Source of the DNA: Synergistes sp.
Lineage (GTDB): Bacteria; Synergistota; Synergistia; Synergistales; Synergistaceae
Assembly (NCBI GenBank): GCA_017537925.1
Contig: JAFYJW010000019.1
Location: forward strand, 1 to 64,000
Direction: 5' to 3'
Length of the DNA: 64,000 nt
Shown: positions 9,624 to 17,846 of the stretch, piece after piece
Layout of the letters: the number at the start of each line of letters is the position of its first letter
Position numbering within the stretch: position 1 is the first letter of the stretch
Notes under the pieces: generated by a model
Seen by the model: only the letters and a program-made list of their open reading frames with translations
The model's database searches: none
Told to the model about the DNA's origin: nothing
Translations under genes and position numbers: made by a program

Positions 9624-10100
9624 AAACGGGCATAACGGCCGTGGCGTTTAATTGCGCCGTCTCTGCATGCCGTTCATGCCGGGCTGATATTGCCGGCGGA
9701 GCCAAGCGTGTACCTCTGTGTCATTGTTTTCCGCAAAAAGCGTTATATATTGCCGCCGGTAAAAGAGATCGCGCGATAAGCCGCAGGCAAACGCGGCCCC
9801 GCTGCCGCGCGGCGGTTCTGCTTGAAATATGCAGATAGTAGTATATAATTAATACAATTTACTTTTTGCGCGCAAATGGCAGGCTCCGGCGCATGCTTTA
9901 ATGCTGAAAAAGGCATGAGCATAGGTTCCGCAGGGCCTGCGCGGGGTGTCATGCGCGAAGTTAACAGTTATGTGAAAAGACGCGGCGTCCTCTTACGGCG
10001 CCGCTGAAAAATGCGGAAAACCAGGGCTTGCAGCAGAATGAAAAACGCCTGGAACAGATAGACACAGCGGCTGACGGATTTGCAGAAAGCGGGGCAGGTC
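9624..10100 (+). promoter_or_regulatory. 477-base gene-free region with promoter and structured leader before the c-di-GMP phosphodiesterase
   Basis: I see no protein gene here. A good promoter, TTGAAA (9822-9827), 16-base spacer, TATAAT (9844-9849), would give a leader of about 245 bases. The leader can form GCAGGC (9879-9884) with GCCTGC (9935-9940), and a second hairpin near 9972-10000 (GCGGCG with CGCCGC) without a T-run. I do not recognise a known riboswitch; it lacks the GEMM c-di-GMP aptamer blocks. Confidence 0.5.
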
Positions 10101-12371
10101 ATGCAGGAAGGAAACCGTAAATTCCATTCCATGAACGGCAAAAGGCGTATCCTGGTCATTGAAGATGAACCTATAAACCGGGAAATACTTAATCTCATCC
10201 TGCAGGATGAATATGAGGTGGTTGCTGCCGCGGACGGCGCATCGGCGCTTGAGACGGTGCGCGCTCAGTACGATACGCTGAGCCTCATCCTTCTTGATCT
10301 TAACCTTCCTGATGCGCATGGCCTTGATATACTGCGCCGTCTTAAGGATGACCAGCAGTATGCGATGATTCCCGTGATAGTCATGACGGCGGATAAGGAA
10401 GCTGAGGTAGAAAGCCTTTCCTTCGGAGCCGTCGATTTCATCCCGAAGCCCTACCCGCAGCCGAAGGTCATTCTGGCAAGGGTGCTGCGCACGATAGAGC
10501 TTTACGAGGACCGCGACATCATACGCTGGACGGAACGCGACAATCTGACAGGACTCTACAACAGAGATTATTTTTACCGCTACGCTTCGCAGTATGACCT
10601 TTATCACAAAGATGCCGCGATGGACGCCATAGTGCTGGATATAAACCACTTCCATATGCTCAACGAACGCTACGGCAGGGCATACGGGGATCAGACCCTT
10701 AAACGCATAGGGGAAGACATACTCGAATTCGTCAAAGATTTTGGCGCCATGGCCTGCCGCCGCAGCGCGGACACCTTCCTGGTCTACTCCCCGCACCGCA
10801 GCGATTACGCCGATCTGTTAGGCAAAGTTTCGGGCGAGCTCAGCGGAGGCAGCAAAAATCAGAACATCGCCAGGGTAAGGATGGGAGTCTATTACAACGT
10901 CGACAGGCAGATAGACATAGAGCGGCGCTTTGACAGGGCAAAGCTGGCCGCTGACATGATAAAAAACAGCTATGCAAATCCGATAGGCATTTACGACGAA
11001 TCGATGCACGCGTCTGAAGTATTTGACGAACAGCTGATAGAGGATTTTCAGACGGCGATAGATGAAAAACAGTTCCAGGTCTATTACCAGCCGAAGTTCA
11101 ACATCCAACAGGAGGAACCTATGCTCAGCAGCGCCGAAGCCCTGGTGCGCTGGAAGCATCCGAAGTTAGGCATGGTGAGCCCCGGCGTATTCGTCCCCCT
11201 CTTCGAGAACAACGGTCTCATACAGAAGCTGGACGATTACGTTTGGCGTACTGCGGCGGCTAAAATAAAGGACTGGAAGGAACGGCTGGGGCTTTCCATC
11301 CCGGTGTCCATCAATATTTCAAGGGTAGACATGTACGATGCGGATTTTGTCGAAAAGCTTAAGAGCATAGCGGAAGAGAACAGGCTGGACCGCGGCGAGC
11401 TCCTGCTTGAGATAACGGAATCGGCATATACGGAAAATTCCGGACAGATAATAAATACTGTTAAGGAGCTCAGAGATCTGGACTTCTGCATCGAAATGGA
11501 CGACTTCGGCTCAGGCTATTCATCCCTTAATATGATCTCGACGCTTCCGATAGACGCCCTTAAGCTGGATATGCAGTTTATCAGGAATGCTTTTAAGGAG
11601 CGCAAGGATACAAGGCTGCTGCAAGCGGTCGTGCAGCTTGCCGAATCAATGGAGCTGCCGACTATCGCAGAAGGCGTGGAGACCGCCGAGCAGATGCTGG
11701 CATTGAAAAACATGGGCTGCGATGTGGTGCAGGGATATTATTTCTCCCGCCCGCTCCCGGCGGATGAATTCGAGGAGTATATAAAAGATAAAAAGCTGAT
11801 GGATTCCGCGGTTTCGGAGCTCAAAAAAAGCACAGGGTCAAAAACCGGAGACCGTTTTATTTACGACGCGCTGCATGACCCCCTTACCGGGCTCTACAAC
11901 AACACGGCGTTTGAGGTGCTCTTCCGCGATTCCGACAAGGAGCATATAGCTGTTCTGATAGTCGACGTCAACGATTACGGCGCCATCGTAAAAACAAAGG
12001 GCAAAGCATATGCGGATATGGTGATCAAACGGACCGCCGGGGTCATCTGCGGAAGCTTCCGGTCAGTGGACAATATCTGCCGTATAAGAAACGACGAGTT
12101 CGTCGTGATCATGACAAGGGTAACAGGCTCGATGCGCGGTCTGGTCTGCGATAAGGTGGAACAGATAATCGCCCGGCTCAGCGATCCGGCTGAAGGAGAG
12201 CCTCATGTCTCGTTGAGCGTCGGGATAGCTTTTTCTGATATGGAGAACCCCGGCGGCGACATTTTCCGCGACGCCGACGCCGCATTGGATAAAGCCAAAA
12301 AAGCACGGCAGGGAGAATCCTGCTATGAGTTCTTTTCTCCCGGCGAGGAAAGCGGACCGGAGAACCGCTGA
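10101..12371 (+). CDS. receiver - GGDEF - EAL - GGDEF protein, predicted c-di-GMP phosphodiesterase response regulator
   Basis: A protein of about 756 residues if started at ATG 10101; ATG 10131 and TTG 10080 are alternatives, none with a strong binding site. Domains: receiver (about residues 15-130, acidic pair ED at 21-22, phospho-acceptor Asp66 in LLDLNLPDA, KPYP near 122). Next is a GGDEF domain whose signature has decayed to RRSADTF. Then comes a complete EAL domain with AEALVRWKHP, EITESAY, MDDFGSGYSSLN, LKLDMQFIRN and AEGVET. Last is a second GGDEF domain with RNDEF instead of GGDEF. The likely activity is c-di-GMP hydrolysis gated by phosphorylation; the cyclase domains look inactive. 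The hybrid kinase encoded next is the obvious candidate partner. Confidence 0.88.
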   Translation: MQEGNRKFHSMNGKRRILVIEDEPINREILNLILQDEYEVVAAADGASALETVRAQYDTLSLILLDLNLPDAHGLDILRRLKDDQQYAMIPVIVMTADKEAEVESLSFGAVDFIPKPYPQPKVILARVLRTIELYEDRDIIRWTERDNLTGLYNRDYFYRYASQYDLYHKDAAMDAIVLDINHFHMLNERYGRAYGDQTLKRIGEDILEFVKDFGAMACRRSADTFLVYSPHRSDYADLLGKVSGELSGGSKNQNIARVRMGVYYNVDRQIDIERRFDRAKLAADMIKNSYANPIGIYDESMHASEVFDEQLIEDFQTAIDEKQFQVYYQPKFNIQQEEPMLSSAEALVRWKHPKLGMVSPGVFVPLFENNGLIQKLDDYVWRTAAAKIKDWKERLGLSIPVSINISRVDMYDADFVEKLKSIAEENRLDRGELLLEITESAYTENSGQIINTVKELRDLDFCIEMDDFGSGYSSLNMISTLPIDALKLDMQFIRNAFKERKDTRLLQAVVQLAESMELPTIAEGVETAEQMLALKNMGCDVVQGYYFSRPLPADEFEEYIKDKKLMDSAVSELKKSTGSKTGDRFIYDALHDPLTGLYNNTAFEVLFRDSDKEHIAVLIVDVNDYGAIVKTKGKAYADMVIKRTAGVICGSFRSVDNICRIRNDEFVVIMTRVTGSMRGLVCDKVEQIIARLSDPAEGEPHVSLSVGIAFSDMENPGGDIFRDADAALDKAKKARQGESCYEFFSPGEESGPENR

Positions 12372-12425: not shown

Positions 12426-12494
12426 AGGAAACAGATTCTGAAGCACGACGCCGAACTGCCGAACAGCAGTCCGGTTTTGTATGTTTTTTGATAC

Positions 12495-12542
12495 GCAAAA
12501 CGGAAAAACGATCGGCATGCAAAACGGAAAAACGATCGGCAT
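12495..12542 (+). repeat. perfect 24-bp tandem duplication
   Basis: The unit beginning GCAAAACGGAAAAACG and ending ATCGGCAT occurs twice head to tail (12495-12518 and 12519-12542) without mismatch. It lies upstream of the permease-kinase gene, in the leader or promoter region. It could be a duplicated protein-binding site or a replication-slippage product. Confidence 0.9.
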
Positions 12543-12607
12543 ATATATGACGGGAATGCTGCAAAATACGAAGCAGGGCCGTTTTTCCCGGGAAGGTGAC
12601 TGTTGAT

Positions 12608-15409
12608 ATGGAAGCAGAAAAAATAAGCAGAGTTTACGACCGATATATGACCCCCGCGGATGTGTGGGGGATGGCTTTCGGCTGTATGGTAGGCTGGGGC
12701 GCGTTCGTCATGCCCGGCACCACATTCCTGCCGCTGGCCGGCCCAGCCGGCGTCATGATCGCGATGGCCGTCGGCACCGCCCTTATGCTTCTGATAGGCG
12801 CTAACTTTTCTTTCCTTATGGTGCATGAACCAGGCCCCGGCGGCATATATTTATATACGAAAAGCGCGTTTGGGCGCGATCATGCGTTTTTGAGCTCATG
12901 GTTTCTCTGCCTGTCATATATGGCCATCGTTTTCCTGAATGCTACGGCTCTGTTTATAGTGCCGAGGATCCTCTTCGGAAGTATGCTTCAGACCGGTCAT
13001 CATTATGTCATTGCAGGGAACAAAGTCTATCTGGCCGAGGTGGCGCTGTCGGTCGCCGCACTGGCCGCGGTAGGGTTTATGTTTATCAAAGCAAAGGTCT
13101 TTCTGCAGAGGACGCTCACCGTTCTTGCGGTCGTACTTTTTGCCGGTGTGTTTGCAGTCTCCGCCGCCTGTCTTCCCGGCGCACTGGCCGGAGGCGGGCT
13201 CACTTCTTTCGGCTTCGGAACGTCAGGCAGGTTATTCGCTGTATTTTCCATCGTCATTTTGGCCCCGTGGGCGTTTGTAGGCTTTGAGGTCGTATCGTTT
13301 GACACGGTGCATTTTACCTTTTCCCCCGGCAGGGCAAAATGGCTCATCGCGTTTTCCATTATAACGGCGGGCTTCACATACGCGGTTTTGAATGTCGTCG
13401 CAGTTTCGGCCCTGCCGGACGGATATGATTCATGGCAGTCATATATTGCAGCCGCAGGCAGCCTTGAAGGGATAAACGCGGTGCCGGTCTTCTATGCCGC
13501 AAATTCGGTGATGGGCCGTGCGGGGCTTGCGGTCATAGCCGCAGCTGCCGCAGCGGCGATCCTCACCGGTATGATCGGCGCCTACCGTGCGCTGATCCGG
13601 CTGCTTTCAACTATGGCGGAAGACAATATCCTTTCTCACAGATTCTTAAATACGAAGACCTGTATCATCTTTGTCATGGTAATATCGATCGTTATCTCTT
13701 TCTTTGGCAGAAACGCGCTGTCATGGTTTGTCGATGTAACGTCCTTCGGGGCTGTTGTCGGATACGGATATGTCTCAGCCGCCGCACGCAGAATCGCCAA
13801 AGCCAAAAACAACAGGAAAATATATATTACCGCGACTGCAGCCACTCTGATCTCCGCGGCTTTTGCTGCGGTCCTTCTTGTGCCCGATCTGACGGTGATG
13901 GAAGCCATGAGCGCAGAATCCCTCATGCTGCTGTCGCTCTGGTGTCTGCTGGGCTTTGTCTTCTACTGGAGAACGGTAAAATACAGCAGTTCAACCGAAT
14001 TCGGCGGAGTATCCGCATCTGGCGTCGTACTGTTTGCGCTGCTCCTTTATTCCTCAATGATGTGGTTTGCAAAGACCATGATGCCGGCAAAGAGCATCGG
14101 AGAGATGCACCATGTGCTGATCAATCACGGCTGTGTCCTGATGCTCATCATATTTGCCGGGCTTATCATCATGATTTATGTCCAGGACATGGTCAGGAAG
14201 AGGCATGAGGCGCTGCAGCTGGAGAAGATTCGCGCTGTCGAGGGAAGCCGTGCGAAAAGCCAGTTCCTCTTCAACATGTCGCATGATATAAGGACGCCGA
14301 TGAACGCTATCATAGGCTATACCAACCTTACGATGAAAGAGGAAATATCCCCGACGGCAAAGAAATATCTCGGCAAGATAAATACTTCCAGCCAGCACCT
14401 TCTTTCTCTGATCAACGATATCCTGGAGATGAGCCGCATTGAAAACAAAAAACTTGAACTGGAAAATGCTCCTGAGGATCTCTGCCTGATAATCGAAGAG
14501 ATAGGCGATCTCTTCTCACAGCAGATGAAGCAGAAGGAGATACTCTTTTCAGTCGATGATACAGACGTCAGCAACCGTTATGTCTGGTGCGACAGGAAAA
14601 ATCTGACGAGGGTGATAATGAACCTTACAGGCAACGCCTATAAATTCACGCCGGAGGGCGGAAAGATATCACTGACGCTGCGGCAGACCGGCACCGGCGA
14701 AAACGGGCTCGGGCTGTATGAGATCCGTGTCCGGGACAGCGGGATAGGAATGTCTAAAGAATTTGCCGATAAAATGTTCACGGCTTTTGAACGTGAACGC
14801 ACATCCACAGTCAGCAAAACGGAGGGTACAGGTCTCGGCCTTGCCATCACGAAGGGCATAATCGACATGATGGGAGGAAGCATAGAAACAGTCACAGCTC
14901 CCGGCAAGGGGACTGAGATCATAATACGCATAAAGTTCGGATTTGCGGACCCCGCGGAGATAGCGCCTAAGGCGGAAGATGCCGAGGCTCTGCCGCAGGG
15001 TGCGGATATAGATTTTTCGAAGATGAGGCTCCTGCTTGCGGAGGACAACGACATCAACCGCGAGATAGCCGTCATGATACTGACCCAGGCCGGTTTCACC
15101 GTGGAGACTGCCTGCAACGGGAAAGAAGCCCTTGATATGGTCTCCTCTTCCGCTCCCGGCCGGTACGACGCGGTGCTTATGGACGTCCAGATGCCTGTAA
15201 TGAACGGTTACGAAGCCACAAAGGCAATTCGTTCGCTCGAAAACAGAGAGCTTGCTGAGATACCGATTCTCGCGATGACCGCCAATGCGTTCAAGGAAGA
15301 CGAACTGGCGGCGAAAGAGGCCGGCATGCAGGCGCATATAGCAAAGCCGATCGATGTCGACAAAATGATGGCGACTTTGAGAGAAGTCCTGAGCAGGACA
15401 CGCAGCTGA
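12608..15409 (+). CDS. APC-superfamily amino-acid permease fused to hybrid histidine kinase and receiver domain
   Basis: A 933-residue fusion. ATG 12608 is chosen because GGGAAGG lies about 11 bases upstream; GTG 12596 would be inside that site. Residues 1-530 are about 12 membrane helices of an APC-type permease (WGAFVMPGTTFLPLAGPAG, then GGIYLYTKSAFG). After a short linker comes the kinase: H-box FNMSHDIRTPMNA with His559, N-box NLTGNAYKFTPEGG, G1 RDSGIGMS, G2 GTGLGLAI. The C-terminal receiver has AEDNDINRE, acceptor Asp859 in LMDVQMPVMNG, and Lys in IAKPID. The permease part likely acts as the input, sensing or transporting an amino acid, by analogy with CbrA-type transporter-kinases of a different carrier family. 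The permease is a clear paralogue of the next gene's. Confidence 0.92.
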   Translation: MEAEKISRVYDRYMTPADVWGMAFGCMVGWGAFVMPGTTFLPLAGPAGVMIAMAVGTALMLLIGANFSFLMVHEPGPGGIYLYTKSAFGRDHAFLSSWFLCLSYMAIVFLNATALFIVPRILFGSMLQTGHHYVIAGNKVYLAEVALSVAALAAVGFMFIKAKVFLQRTLTVLAVVLFAGVFAVSAACLPGALAGGGLTSFGFGTSGRLFAVFSIVILAPWAFVGFEVVSFDTVHFTFSPGRAKWLIAFSIITAGFTYAVLNVVAVSALPDGYDSWQSYIAAAGSLEGINAVPVFYAANSVMGRAGLAVIAAAAAAAILTGMIGAYRALIRLLSTMAEDNILSHRFLNTKTCIIFVMVISIVISFFGRNALSWFVDVTSFGAVVGYGYVSAAARRIAKAKNNRKIYITATAATLISAAFAAVLLVPDLTVMEAMSAESLMLLSLWCLLGFVFYWRTVKYSSSTEFGGVSASGVVLFALLLYSSMMWFAKTMMPAKSIGEMHHVLINHGCVLMLIIFAGLIIMIYVQDMVRKRHEALQLEKIRAVEGSRAKSQFLFNMSHDIRTPMNAIIGYTNLTMKEEISPTAKKYLGKINTSSQHLLSLINDILEMSRIENKKLELENAPEDLCLIIEEIGDLFSQQMKQKEILFSVDDTDVSNRYVWCDRKNLTRVIMNLTGNAYKFTPEGGKISLTLRQTGTGENGLGLYEIRVRDSGIGMSKEFADKMFTAFERERTSTVSKTEGTGLGLAITKGIIDMMGGSIETVTAPGKGTEIIIRIKFGFADPAEIAPKAEDAEALPQGADIDFSKMRLLLAEDNDINREIAVMILTQAGFTVETACNGKEALDMVSSSAPGRYDAVLMDVQMPVMNGYEATKAIRSLENRELAEIPILAMTANAFKEDELAAKEAGMQAHIAKPIDVDKMMATLREVLSRTRS

Positions 15410-15592
15410 AGAGACCGGGCGGCATATGCGAGGCGGATATTCATATACGGCGAGGGCGGTTCTGCGGTGATAAGCGACACATCCGACAACCGGGATGACA
15501 TTGAAGATAAAACGGAAGAGGACGCACTGCCTCTGTGAAACGCCGGAAAGCCGGAATCATACAGTATATAACGGGCGCTTGAGCGCAGTGCG

Positions 15593-15622
15593 GGACGGCC
15601 GGGTGGGTGCCCGGCCGGGTCC
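15593..15622 (+). other. strong GC hairpin just upstream of the permease-GGDEF gene
   Basis: GGCCGGG (15597-15603) pairs with CCCGGCC (15610-15616), extended by GGA/TCC on the outside. It ends a few bases before the AGGGGG binding site of the gene at 15644 and has no T-run. It may affect translation or transcript stability. Confidence 0.55.
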
Positions 15623-15643
15623 ATTACAGGGGGTTGCATCTTA

Positions 15644-17035
15644 ATGTCTTGCGGTCAGGAAAATAAACTGAGTCCCTATCTTTCGCCGGCCGGAGCATGG
15701 GCTCTGGCTCTGGGCACGAGCATCGGCTGGGGAAGCCTTGTTATCACGAGCAGCACGTACCTTGCGAAGGCAGGCCCTGCCGGCAGCGCCGCCGGATTGA
15801 TCGCGGGAGCGCTGATCATGCTTGTGATAGCTAGGAACTATCATTATATGATGAACTGCTTCCCGGAGGCCGGTGGCGCGTACTCCTATACCAAAAACGC
15901 CTTCGGCTATGACCATGCCTTTTTGGTCGCGTGGTTCCTCGCACTGACATATCTTGCTATGCTGTGGGCCAACGCCACGGCCCTGCCGCTCTTTGCAAGG
16001 TACTTCATCGGGGATGCGTTCGAATTCGGGAAACTCTACACGATATTCGGCTATGACGTATATATCGGCGAAGCCCTTCTGACCGTTGCCGCCGTACTTG
16101 CGGTCGCCGCGATATGTTCCTGTTGTAAGAAGGGTGCGGCGAGGGCCTTGCTCGTCATGACGGTCTTGCTTGCAGCCGCCGTCCTGACATGCTTCTTTGC
16201 CGCCGTTTTAAGGCAAGACTGCGGCTTTTCCCCCCATACAGTTCCGGAAAAAGGGGTGATCTCACAGATATTAGGGGTCGCCGTGATATCTCCGTGGGCC
16301 TTTATAGGGTTTGAAAGCATATCACATGCGTCGGAAGAGTTCTCGTTTAAGATCCGCATCGCGTATAAGATACTGGCTGCCGCGGTCATCTCAGCGACGC
16401 TGCTTTATATTGCGGCTATCTTTTTGACAGCCTCAGCCTATCCTCCCCGCTATGCGTCATGGCTTGAGTATATCCTGGAGAGCGGCAGTCTGGAAGGGAT
16501 AGAAGGGCTGCCCGCTTTCTACGCTGCGTGGCGTTATCTGGGCGGCTTCGGGATAAATATACTTGCGGCCTCTCTGCTTGCGCTTGTGCTGACAAGTCTT
16601 ATAGGCAACACTCTTGCGCTGAGCCGCCTATTCTATGCGCTGGCGAAAGACGGTATCCTCCCGGAACGTATCTCAAAGCTCAACAGACACGGCATACCGG
16701 GCGGCGCCGTCATGCTGATCGCAGGGGTCTCGCTTGTGCTTCCGTTCATCGGCAGGACCGCGATAGGCTGGATCATGGACGTGACAACTCTGGGCGCGAC
16801 GATGGTCTATGCGTTCGTTTCGGCCTGCGGCCAAAACAGCGCAGATACAGAACGACAGGCTGGAGAAATGGACGGGCGGCGCGGGACTGGCCGTGATGAC
16901 GGCGTTTATGCTGTATATACTCCTGCCCAACCTTTTCACCGCAGGCTCTATAGAAACGGTCTCATATTTCCTGTTTGTCCTCTGGTCTGTGCTCGGTTTC
17001 ATATATTTCCATGCGATACTGAAAAGAGACAGTGA
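15644..17035 (+). CDS. APC-superfamily amino-acid permease, N-terminal part of a frameshifted permease-GGDEF fusion
   Basis: ATG 15644 is preceded by ACAGGGGG. The first 395 or so residues follow the same permease fold as the preceding fusion protein (WGSLVITSSTYLAKAGPAGS, then GGAYSYTKNAFGYDHAFL), with about 10 helices. At GATMVYAFVSA (near 16825) homology stops and about 70 unrelated residues follow to the stop at 17035. The continuation of the permease is in the +1 frame (16809-17846). Skipping one base, T16826, joins them: the paralogue has YVSAAARRIAK where this would read FVSA-AAKTAQ. So this is one gene with a single-base insertion, a decayed gene, or a sequence error. Confidence 0.85.
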   Translation: MSCGQENKLSPYLSPAGAWALALGTSIGWGSLVITSSTYLAKAGPAGSAAGLIAGALIMLVIARNYHYMMNCFPEAGGAYSYTKNAFGYDHAFLVAWFLALTYLAMLWANATALPLFARYFIGDAFEFGKLYTIFGYDVYIGEALLTVAAVLAVAAICSCCKKGAARALLVMTVLLAAAVLTCFFAAVLRQDCGFSPHTVPEKGVISQILGVAVISPWAFIGFESISHASEEFSFKIRIAYKILAAAVISATLLYIAAIFLTASAYPPRYASWLEYILESGSLEGIEGLPAFYAAWRYLGGFGINILAASLLALVLTSLIGNTLALSRLFYALAKDGILPERISKLNRHGIPGGAVMLIAGVSLVLPFIGRTAIGWIMDVTTLGATMVYAFVSACGQNSADTERQAGEMDGRRGTGRDDGVYAVYTPAQPFHRRLYRNGLIFPVCPLVCARFHIFPCDTEKRQ

Positions 17036-17846
17036 AAGACACTTCGGCAGATCACTGATAGTTTGGCTGGCGCTGCTTTCATTGATGCTGTTCGTATCTT
17101 TGGTGTGGATGAGCCAGTCCATGGTCGGCGCGGCGGAAGAGGGAATCAGTGCGGTCGAGGCGTATTACGGCGGCCTCGGCGTCAGCAGCAATGCCGACCT
17201 CTCCGCACAGCATCTGAGTATAATCAGGCATACGAACGCAAGGAGCGTCGTTGTGGTATGCGCTCTGATAGGCCTGTCATTGTCCATTCTGCTGAACAAC
17301 TATCGCCTGATGAGCAGGAGAGCGCTGCATAGCGAGCTGCAGCTCGGCATAATGACGGATATGGTAAATACAGACCCGCTTACCGGCGTAAAGAGCAAAC
17401 GCGCGTTTACAGAGGCTGAACACCTTTTCGACCTTGAGATCAGGGAGGGAAAGGCGGAACCTTTCTCAGTTGTCATCTGCGACGTGAACGGTCTGAAGCA
17501 TATCAACGACACGCTCGGGCACAAGGCCGGTGACGCATATATAAAGGCCGCGAGCGAAATGATCTGCGAACTTTTCCAGCACAGCCCGGTATACCGCTTG
17601 GGCGGGGACGAGTTCGTCATCCTGCTGCGGGGCCGCGATTACAGGAAAAGGCATGAGATCATGGAAGAGCTGCACATAAGATCTGCCGGAAACATAGCTG
17701 AGGGCAAAGCTGTCGTTTCAGGCGGCATGTCGGATTACGAGCGCGGAAAAGACGCGAACATCCATGCAGTCTTCGAGCGGGCCGACGTCCTGATGTATGA
17801 AGAAAAGCAGAGGCTGAAAAGACTCGGGGCCAAAACCAGGCAGTAG
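16809..17846 (+). CDS. C-terminal part of the permease-GGDEF fusion: last permease helices plus diguanylate cyclase domain
   Basis: This frame picks up exactly where the 15644 frame loses homology. It encodes about four membrane helices, a short periplasmic or linker region with another helix (VVVVCALIGLSLSILLNNY), then a GGDEF domain from about residue 185 on: DPLTGVKSKRAF, then the intact signature YRLGGDEFVILL, and MYEEKQRLKRLG at the end. The cyclase signature is complete, so c-di-GMP synthesis is likely if the protein is made. The joined product would be about 734 residues. No convincing ribosome binding site precedes the ATG at 16809. It is the probable opposing enzyme to the phosphodiesterase at 10101. 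Confidence 0.85.
   Translation: MRSFRPAAKTAQIQNDRLEKWTGGAGLAVMTAFMLYILLPNLFTAGSIETVSYFLFVLWSVLGFIYFHAILKRDSERHFGRSLIVWLALLSLMLFVSLVWMSQSMVGAAEEGISAVEAYYGGLGVSSNADLSAQHLSIIRHTNARSVVVVCALIGLSLSILLNNYRLMSRRALHSELQLGIMTDMVNTDPLTGVKSKRAFTEAEHLFDLEIREGKAEPFSVVICDVNGLKHINDTLGHKAGDAYIKAASEMICELFQHSPVYRLGGDEFVILLRGRDYRKRHEIMEELHIRSAGNIAEGKAVVSGGMSDYERGKDANIHAVFERADVLMYEEKQRLKRLGAKTRQ

Follow-up and report, generated by a model that had tools for sequence, protein, structure and literature searches.

Putative APC-permease receptors and a receiver-bearing c-di-GMP enzyme in a Synergistes gene cluster

Two neighboring genes in a contig of Synergistes sp. (JAFYJW010000019.1; the whole stretch analyzed, 64,000 nucleotides, is called the window here) each join an amino-acid permease domain to a signaling output. 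Are these transporters with regulatory tails, or receptors built on a transporter fold, and do they act together? A sequence-only reading of the window had proposed an amino-acid-sensing input that was duplicated and linked to a kinase and to a cyclase. It overlooked a third gene that belongs to the same module. The three genes, here named C, A and B in their order along the window, are described in Table 1.

Table 1. Genes C, A and B of the window and their parts
Feature	Positions	Strand	Basis or remark
Gene C, predicted receiver-controlled c-di-GMP phosphodiesterase	10080..12371	+	Pfam, motifs
Gene C, REC	~10149-10469		
Gene C, degenerate GGDEF	10536-10970		
Gene C, EAL	11040-11753		
Gene C, degenerate GGDEF	11868-12311		
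Gene A, APC receptor and hybrid histidine kinase	12608..15409	+	ATG 12608; earliest possible start GTG 12596; 933-937 aa
Gene A, APC permease core	12665..13885	+	PF13520; fold match to GkApcT, AdiC
Gene A, two extra TM helices past the core	14003..14251	+	AlphaFold, hydropathy, alignment with fused relatives
Gene A, HisKA (phospho-acceptor motif SHDIRTPMNA) and HATPase_c	14252..14938	+	Pfam, motifs
Gene A, receiver domain (LMDVQMP, AKP)	15032..15379	+	Pfam, motifs
Gene B, APC receptor and diguanylate cyclase over two frames	15644..17846	+	ORFs, Pfam, relatives
Gene B, APC permease core, upstream frame	15692..16825	+	PF13520
Gene B, frame-change stretch, lesion or assembly error	16825..16836	+	Relatives read straight through
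Gene B, GGDEF domain	17367..17813	+	DVNG, IND, GHKAGD, GGDEF present

Architecture of genes A and B

Pfam finds AA_permease_2 (PF13520; E 4e-11), HisKA, HATPase_c and Response_reg in gene A, in agreement with the kinase-plus-receiver fusion first described from the letters. The permease domain scores 42.8 bits against a curated cut-off of 27, placing it in the APC superfamily, and the output has the features of a hybrid kinase: HisKA with its histidine, N and G boxes, and a receiver with its Asp and Lys. Full-length relatives are 57-59% identical. The APC fold of the membrane part is supported by profile matches and by an AlphaFold model. Searched with a profile built on the membrane region of the family, the PDB sequences yield CAT1, CAT4, GkApcT, AdiC and LAT2; the model of gene A, of moderate confidence (eight sequences, mean pLDDT 73, pTM 0.55), reaches TM-scores of 0.77-0.83, normalised by target, against GkApcT (6f34) and AdiC, at about 15-17% identity. 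By structure comparison its output part matches GacS/RetS-type kinases. Pfam found no domain in residues 430-553, that is, no STAC, PAS or HAMP between carrier and kinase, and the model predicts a single helix (497-576 of 933 residues) in which the last extra TM segment continues into the DHp with its phospho-acceptor histidine.

Gene B has AA_permease_2 (E 9e-26; 91.2 bits against the cut-off of 27) in the ORF at 15644-17035, and GGDEF (E 3e-22) in the ORF at 16809-17846. These are different frames, so gene B is broken in this assembly, and no single frame runs from receptor to cyclase. The alignment with relatives spans both ORFs, switching frame at about 16825-16836; intact relatives are 738-762 aa long in one frame, and the nearest relatives are 52-53% identical. 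The GGDEF domain carries the signature and substrate motifs of a predicted diguanylate cyclase. The cyclase had been called intact, which holds for the motifs of its domain but not for the reading frame of the gene. Third-position GC is 0.65 and 0.68 across the two halves, near that of A and C. An APC-HK gene in a different assembly is also split over two ORFs (L111, 1303-3456 and 3-1307), so the window is not alone in having a broken member of the APC-fusion family.

The permease domains of A and B are homologous and APC-type, as had been supposed: PF13520 is found in both, they are 37% identical, and the fold matches. The extra TM helices and the rest of the membrane part likewise align between APC-HK and APC-GGDEF proteins. 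The TM6 motif is GFEVVSF in A and GFESISH in B, both without proline. This proline occurs in none of the 54 fused modules in which TM6 was compared, in all 17 stand-alone relatives and in 3/3 outgroup rows. GkApcT lacks it too, so the mark is diagnostic within the family and is not proof of lost transport. Loss of the TM3 Glu/TM5 Lys pair of GkApcT was also considered as a sign of lost transport, and was set aside as non-discriminating since fused and stand-alone relatives have lost the pair alike.

Distribution and history of the fused family

We surveyed about 1,500 genomes, naming families from the titles of their centre genomes. Both APC-HK and APC-GGDEF fusions were found, and further outputs besides; the full set comprises HK, HK-REC, HK-REC-HPt, GGDEF, GGDEF-REC-GGDEF-EAL and HD-GYP, where HPt is what we take the C-terminal extension after the receiver to be in one fully read APC-HK-REC. 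That one APC input family is tied to phosphorelay and c-di-GMP outputs, as suggested from the window, is thus seen across many genomes. The module-bearing genomes belong mainly to Selenomonadaceae and Lachnospiraceae, and the family is widespread in gut and rumen bacteria. The pairing had been called unusual, which is true of the searchable literature and untrue of genomes: 105 of the 189 in the family titled Selenomonadaceae match, with tandem APC-HK pairs and one tandem APC-GGDEF pair. Selenomonad loci L202, L203, L204 and L205 are tandem APC-HK pairs that lack a receiver, and in one gene (L202, 3017-5551) HisKA scores under the Pfam cut-off.

The family of Butyrivibrio MB2005 has matches in 31 of 397 genomes, including APC-GGDEF, APC-GGDEF-REC-GGDEF-EAL and APC-PAS-GGDEF, and the family named from an Erysipelotrichaceae title has APC-HD-GYP fusions. 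More fusions to GGDEF and HD-GYP came from 391 genomes drawn evenly across the Butyrivibrio class. We found no description of the APC permease-HD-GYP architecture (L227-L232, L248, L251). One 1790-aa ORF (L210, 2936-8305) opens with APC-HK-REC, after which some 800 further residues follow. A plasmid search returned, among the matches listed, kinase halves only.

Within the window's own class (183 genomes) the module is confined to this genome and a pair of genera from another family, which have fused APC-HK-REC, the one with the presumed HPt among them, plus many stand-alone permeases. The stand-alone permease adjoins an HK-REC gene in six of the seven regions read in this class. Same-family stand-alone permeases are divergent to HK-REC genes in one genus of the order to which the window belongs (L101, L103-L107), and these pairs may be what corresponds, unfused, to the fused receptors. 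Another stand-alone permease adjoins an HD_5 (HD-GYP-like) protein (L102, 9427-11535).

A tree was built from 75 modules, 55 of them fused (counting one truncated ORF, L192), with SH-aLRT support from a quick search. By this measure the fused modules form one branch (99), with the stand-alone permeases outside it. Kinase is the commonest output; two or more changes are required for GGDEF and a single one for HD-GYP, all inside the fused clade. The locus has what we propose as the marks of the family: an APC core, two extra TM helices and an output, within the fused clade. Gene A (100, with L003, L186 and L187) and gene B (97, with L188, L189 and L191) sit in groups distant from each other. A duplicated input module had been the initial suggestion; placement on separate old branches speaks against a recent local duplication, and A and B are instead old paralogs brought together. 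The 1.98 Mb genome has no further AA_permease_2 locus, and both genes are fused, so the genome appears to use AA_permease_2 only in fused form. The genus has two other genomes, and neither these nor the remaining members of the family carry A-like or B-like fusions, while the nearest relatives of both genes are in other groups, which points to horizontal acquisition of A and B.

Gene C and its linkage to the proposed receptors

The EAL domain of gene C keeps the metal and catalytic motifs (EALVRW, ITES, DDFGSGYSS, LKLD and EGVET), and its GGDEF domains are without the signature, with RSADT and RNDEF instead. It is the sole EAL domain of the genome; of seven GGDEF domains in the genome, three belong to C and B. 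Gene C is 45-52% identical to its APC-linked relatives, whereas the EAL proteins found in its own family reach 41% at most.

Independent links tie both kinds of APC receptor to receiver-bearing c-di-GMP enzymes. One polypeptide of 1463 aa (L211) is 52.7% identical to B across 735 residues and 51.9% identical to C across 563, and this B-C fusion is repeated at L212. Elsewhere a C-type gene comes immediately after an APC-GGDEF gene (L257) or lies two genes before one (L260). At L258 a C-type gene precedes APC-HK-REC, in the same order as in the window, and is also flanked by a second HK-REC. A REC-GGDEF regulator stands directly upstream of APC-HK-REC in Butyrivibrio (L006). For most surveyed A-type genes a C-type neighbor was not seen, or the flanks lay outside the regions read.

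The gaps separating C, A and B are about 230 bases each. A promoter scan gave 5 sites, versus 7.1 expected, and thus no informative signal. In the gap between C and A (window 12490-12545), a stretch of about 24 bases (gcaaaacggaaaaacgatcggcat) occurs twice, head to tail, as a direct repeat.

A proposed control module, its rivals and known systems

We consider it fairly probable that the three genes control c-di-GMP as one module with an APC-fold receptor, in which the state of the ligand would set c-di-GMP through opposing enzymes. The APC core would bind an amino acid or similar small solute, and the resulting shape change would be relayed into the output by the two added TM helices, without PAS, STAC or HAMP. 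In gene A the helix motion would move the DHp of the hybrid kinase, and the phosphorelay, via its own receiver or directly, would most likely reach the receiver of phosphodiesterase C. In gene B the same kind of receptor would drive a diguanylate cyclase directly and so make c-di-GMP. A point against the module as a whole is that another kinase could serve C; at L258 a second HK-REC also flanks the C-type gene. With gene B frame-broken here, the strain may keep only the A-to-C branch.

The ligand is probably an amino acid, judging from the fold and from neighbors. An SBP_bac_3-HK-REC gene directly follows one A-type gene (L241), and a peptidase lies beside a stand-alone member (L106); both hint at amino acids. 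Comparison of the neighbors of gene A with those of L003, L241 and L242 gave no synteny. The flanking genes of Selenomonads, tried as a ligand clue, varied and were dropped.

The APC part might instead mainly import amino acids, the kinase or cyclase reporting flux or tuning uptake, cf. CbrA, which transports histidine as well as signaling (PMC7918813). Both the TM1 GxG break and the TM6 GFE motif are present in a complete core, and the stand-alone relatives adjoin the fused clade in the tree; nevertheless the uniform loss of the TM6 proline suggests a changed role, and we regard transporters with regulatory tails as a possible but rather unlikely description. It is also conceivable that A and B are neighbors by chance and serve unrelated pathways. 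They come from distant branches, and A-type and B-type genes stand side by side in no other genome seen. Against chance, C-type partners link independently with B-type genes (L211, L212, L257 and L260) and with an A-type gene (L258), and we hold it unlikely.

The frame break in gene B allows two other readings. The locus could be decaying, newly acquired by the species and without function, with B as a pseudogene; besides the break itself, the second broken member at L111 fits with this, and so does the lack of such fusions elsewhere in the genus (two other genomes) and in the family. We doubt it, because A and C are intact with their catalytic motifs present, third-position GC is uniform through B and close to that of A and C, and one frame change may simply be an error in an assembly of 77 contigs. 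Expression of gene B through programmed frameshifting, to which only the open and overlapping state of both halves lends itself, seems highly improbable: every intact relative seen stays in one frame, and inspection by eye recognised no classic slippery site.

For the family beyond the window, we find the case evenly balanced that the APC fold was recruited once as an input and acquired two helices for coupling, after which its outputs were exchanged (kinase, diguanylate cyclase, cyclase-phosphodiesterase, HD-GYP), to give a direct amino-acid-to-c-di-GMP route in anaerobic gut bacteria with a conserved REC-GGDEF-EAL partner. If true, this would add a second carrier family, one whose outputs can be exchanged, and would point to the motion of carriers as a general source of signals. 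The APC module would also offer comparative material on the change from carrier to receptor, the TM6 difference included, and an amino acid input for c-di-GMP signaling in rumen and gut anaerobes.

Bacterial transporter-receptor fusions are described as rare, and those studied are of the SLC5 type, CbrA and CrbS (PMC13022988, PMC7918813). We found no paper on APC-kinase or APC-GGDEF fusions in a search that covered few subscription journals, so that absence is not proven. CbrA and CrbS/MxtR resemble A in joining a LeuT-fold carrier to a histidine kinase for nutrient sensing by transporter-receptor logic (PMC7918813, PMC13022988), and CrbS is, like gene A, a hybrid kinase. However, the carrier of CbrA and CrbS is SLC5/SSS with 13 TM helices, whereas A is AA_permease_2 with no sodium-solute symporter family found by Pfam, and they have STAC and PAS between carrier and kinase where gene A has neither. 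GGDEF is not mentioned in the CbrA structure paper, and is among the interchangeable outputs of the APC module. The APC module thus works like CbrA but lacks its defining features (SLC5, STAC/PAS). GkApcT, AdiC and CAT1 (SLC7-like) share fold and sequence homology with the membrane core of the module and, unlike A and B, have no signaling output; the TM3 Glu and TM5 Lys of GkApcT are those not kept in the module. The 5TMR receptors also couple a transporter-derived membrane module to HK, REC, GGDEF or EAL outputs, but their membrane fold is unrelated to APC and linked to ECF S-components (PMC11109136). The word 'permease' is absent from a review of amino acids and c-di-GMP (PMC8846402). Amino acid input to c-di-GMP turnover, as proposed here, is known from SpdE, STM1987 and RmcA, where the input domain is dCACHE_1 or SBP_bac_3 rather than APC (PMC8846402).
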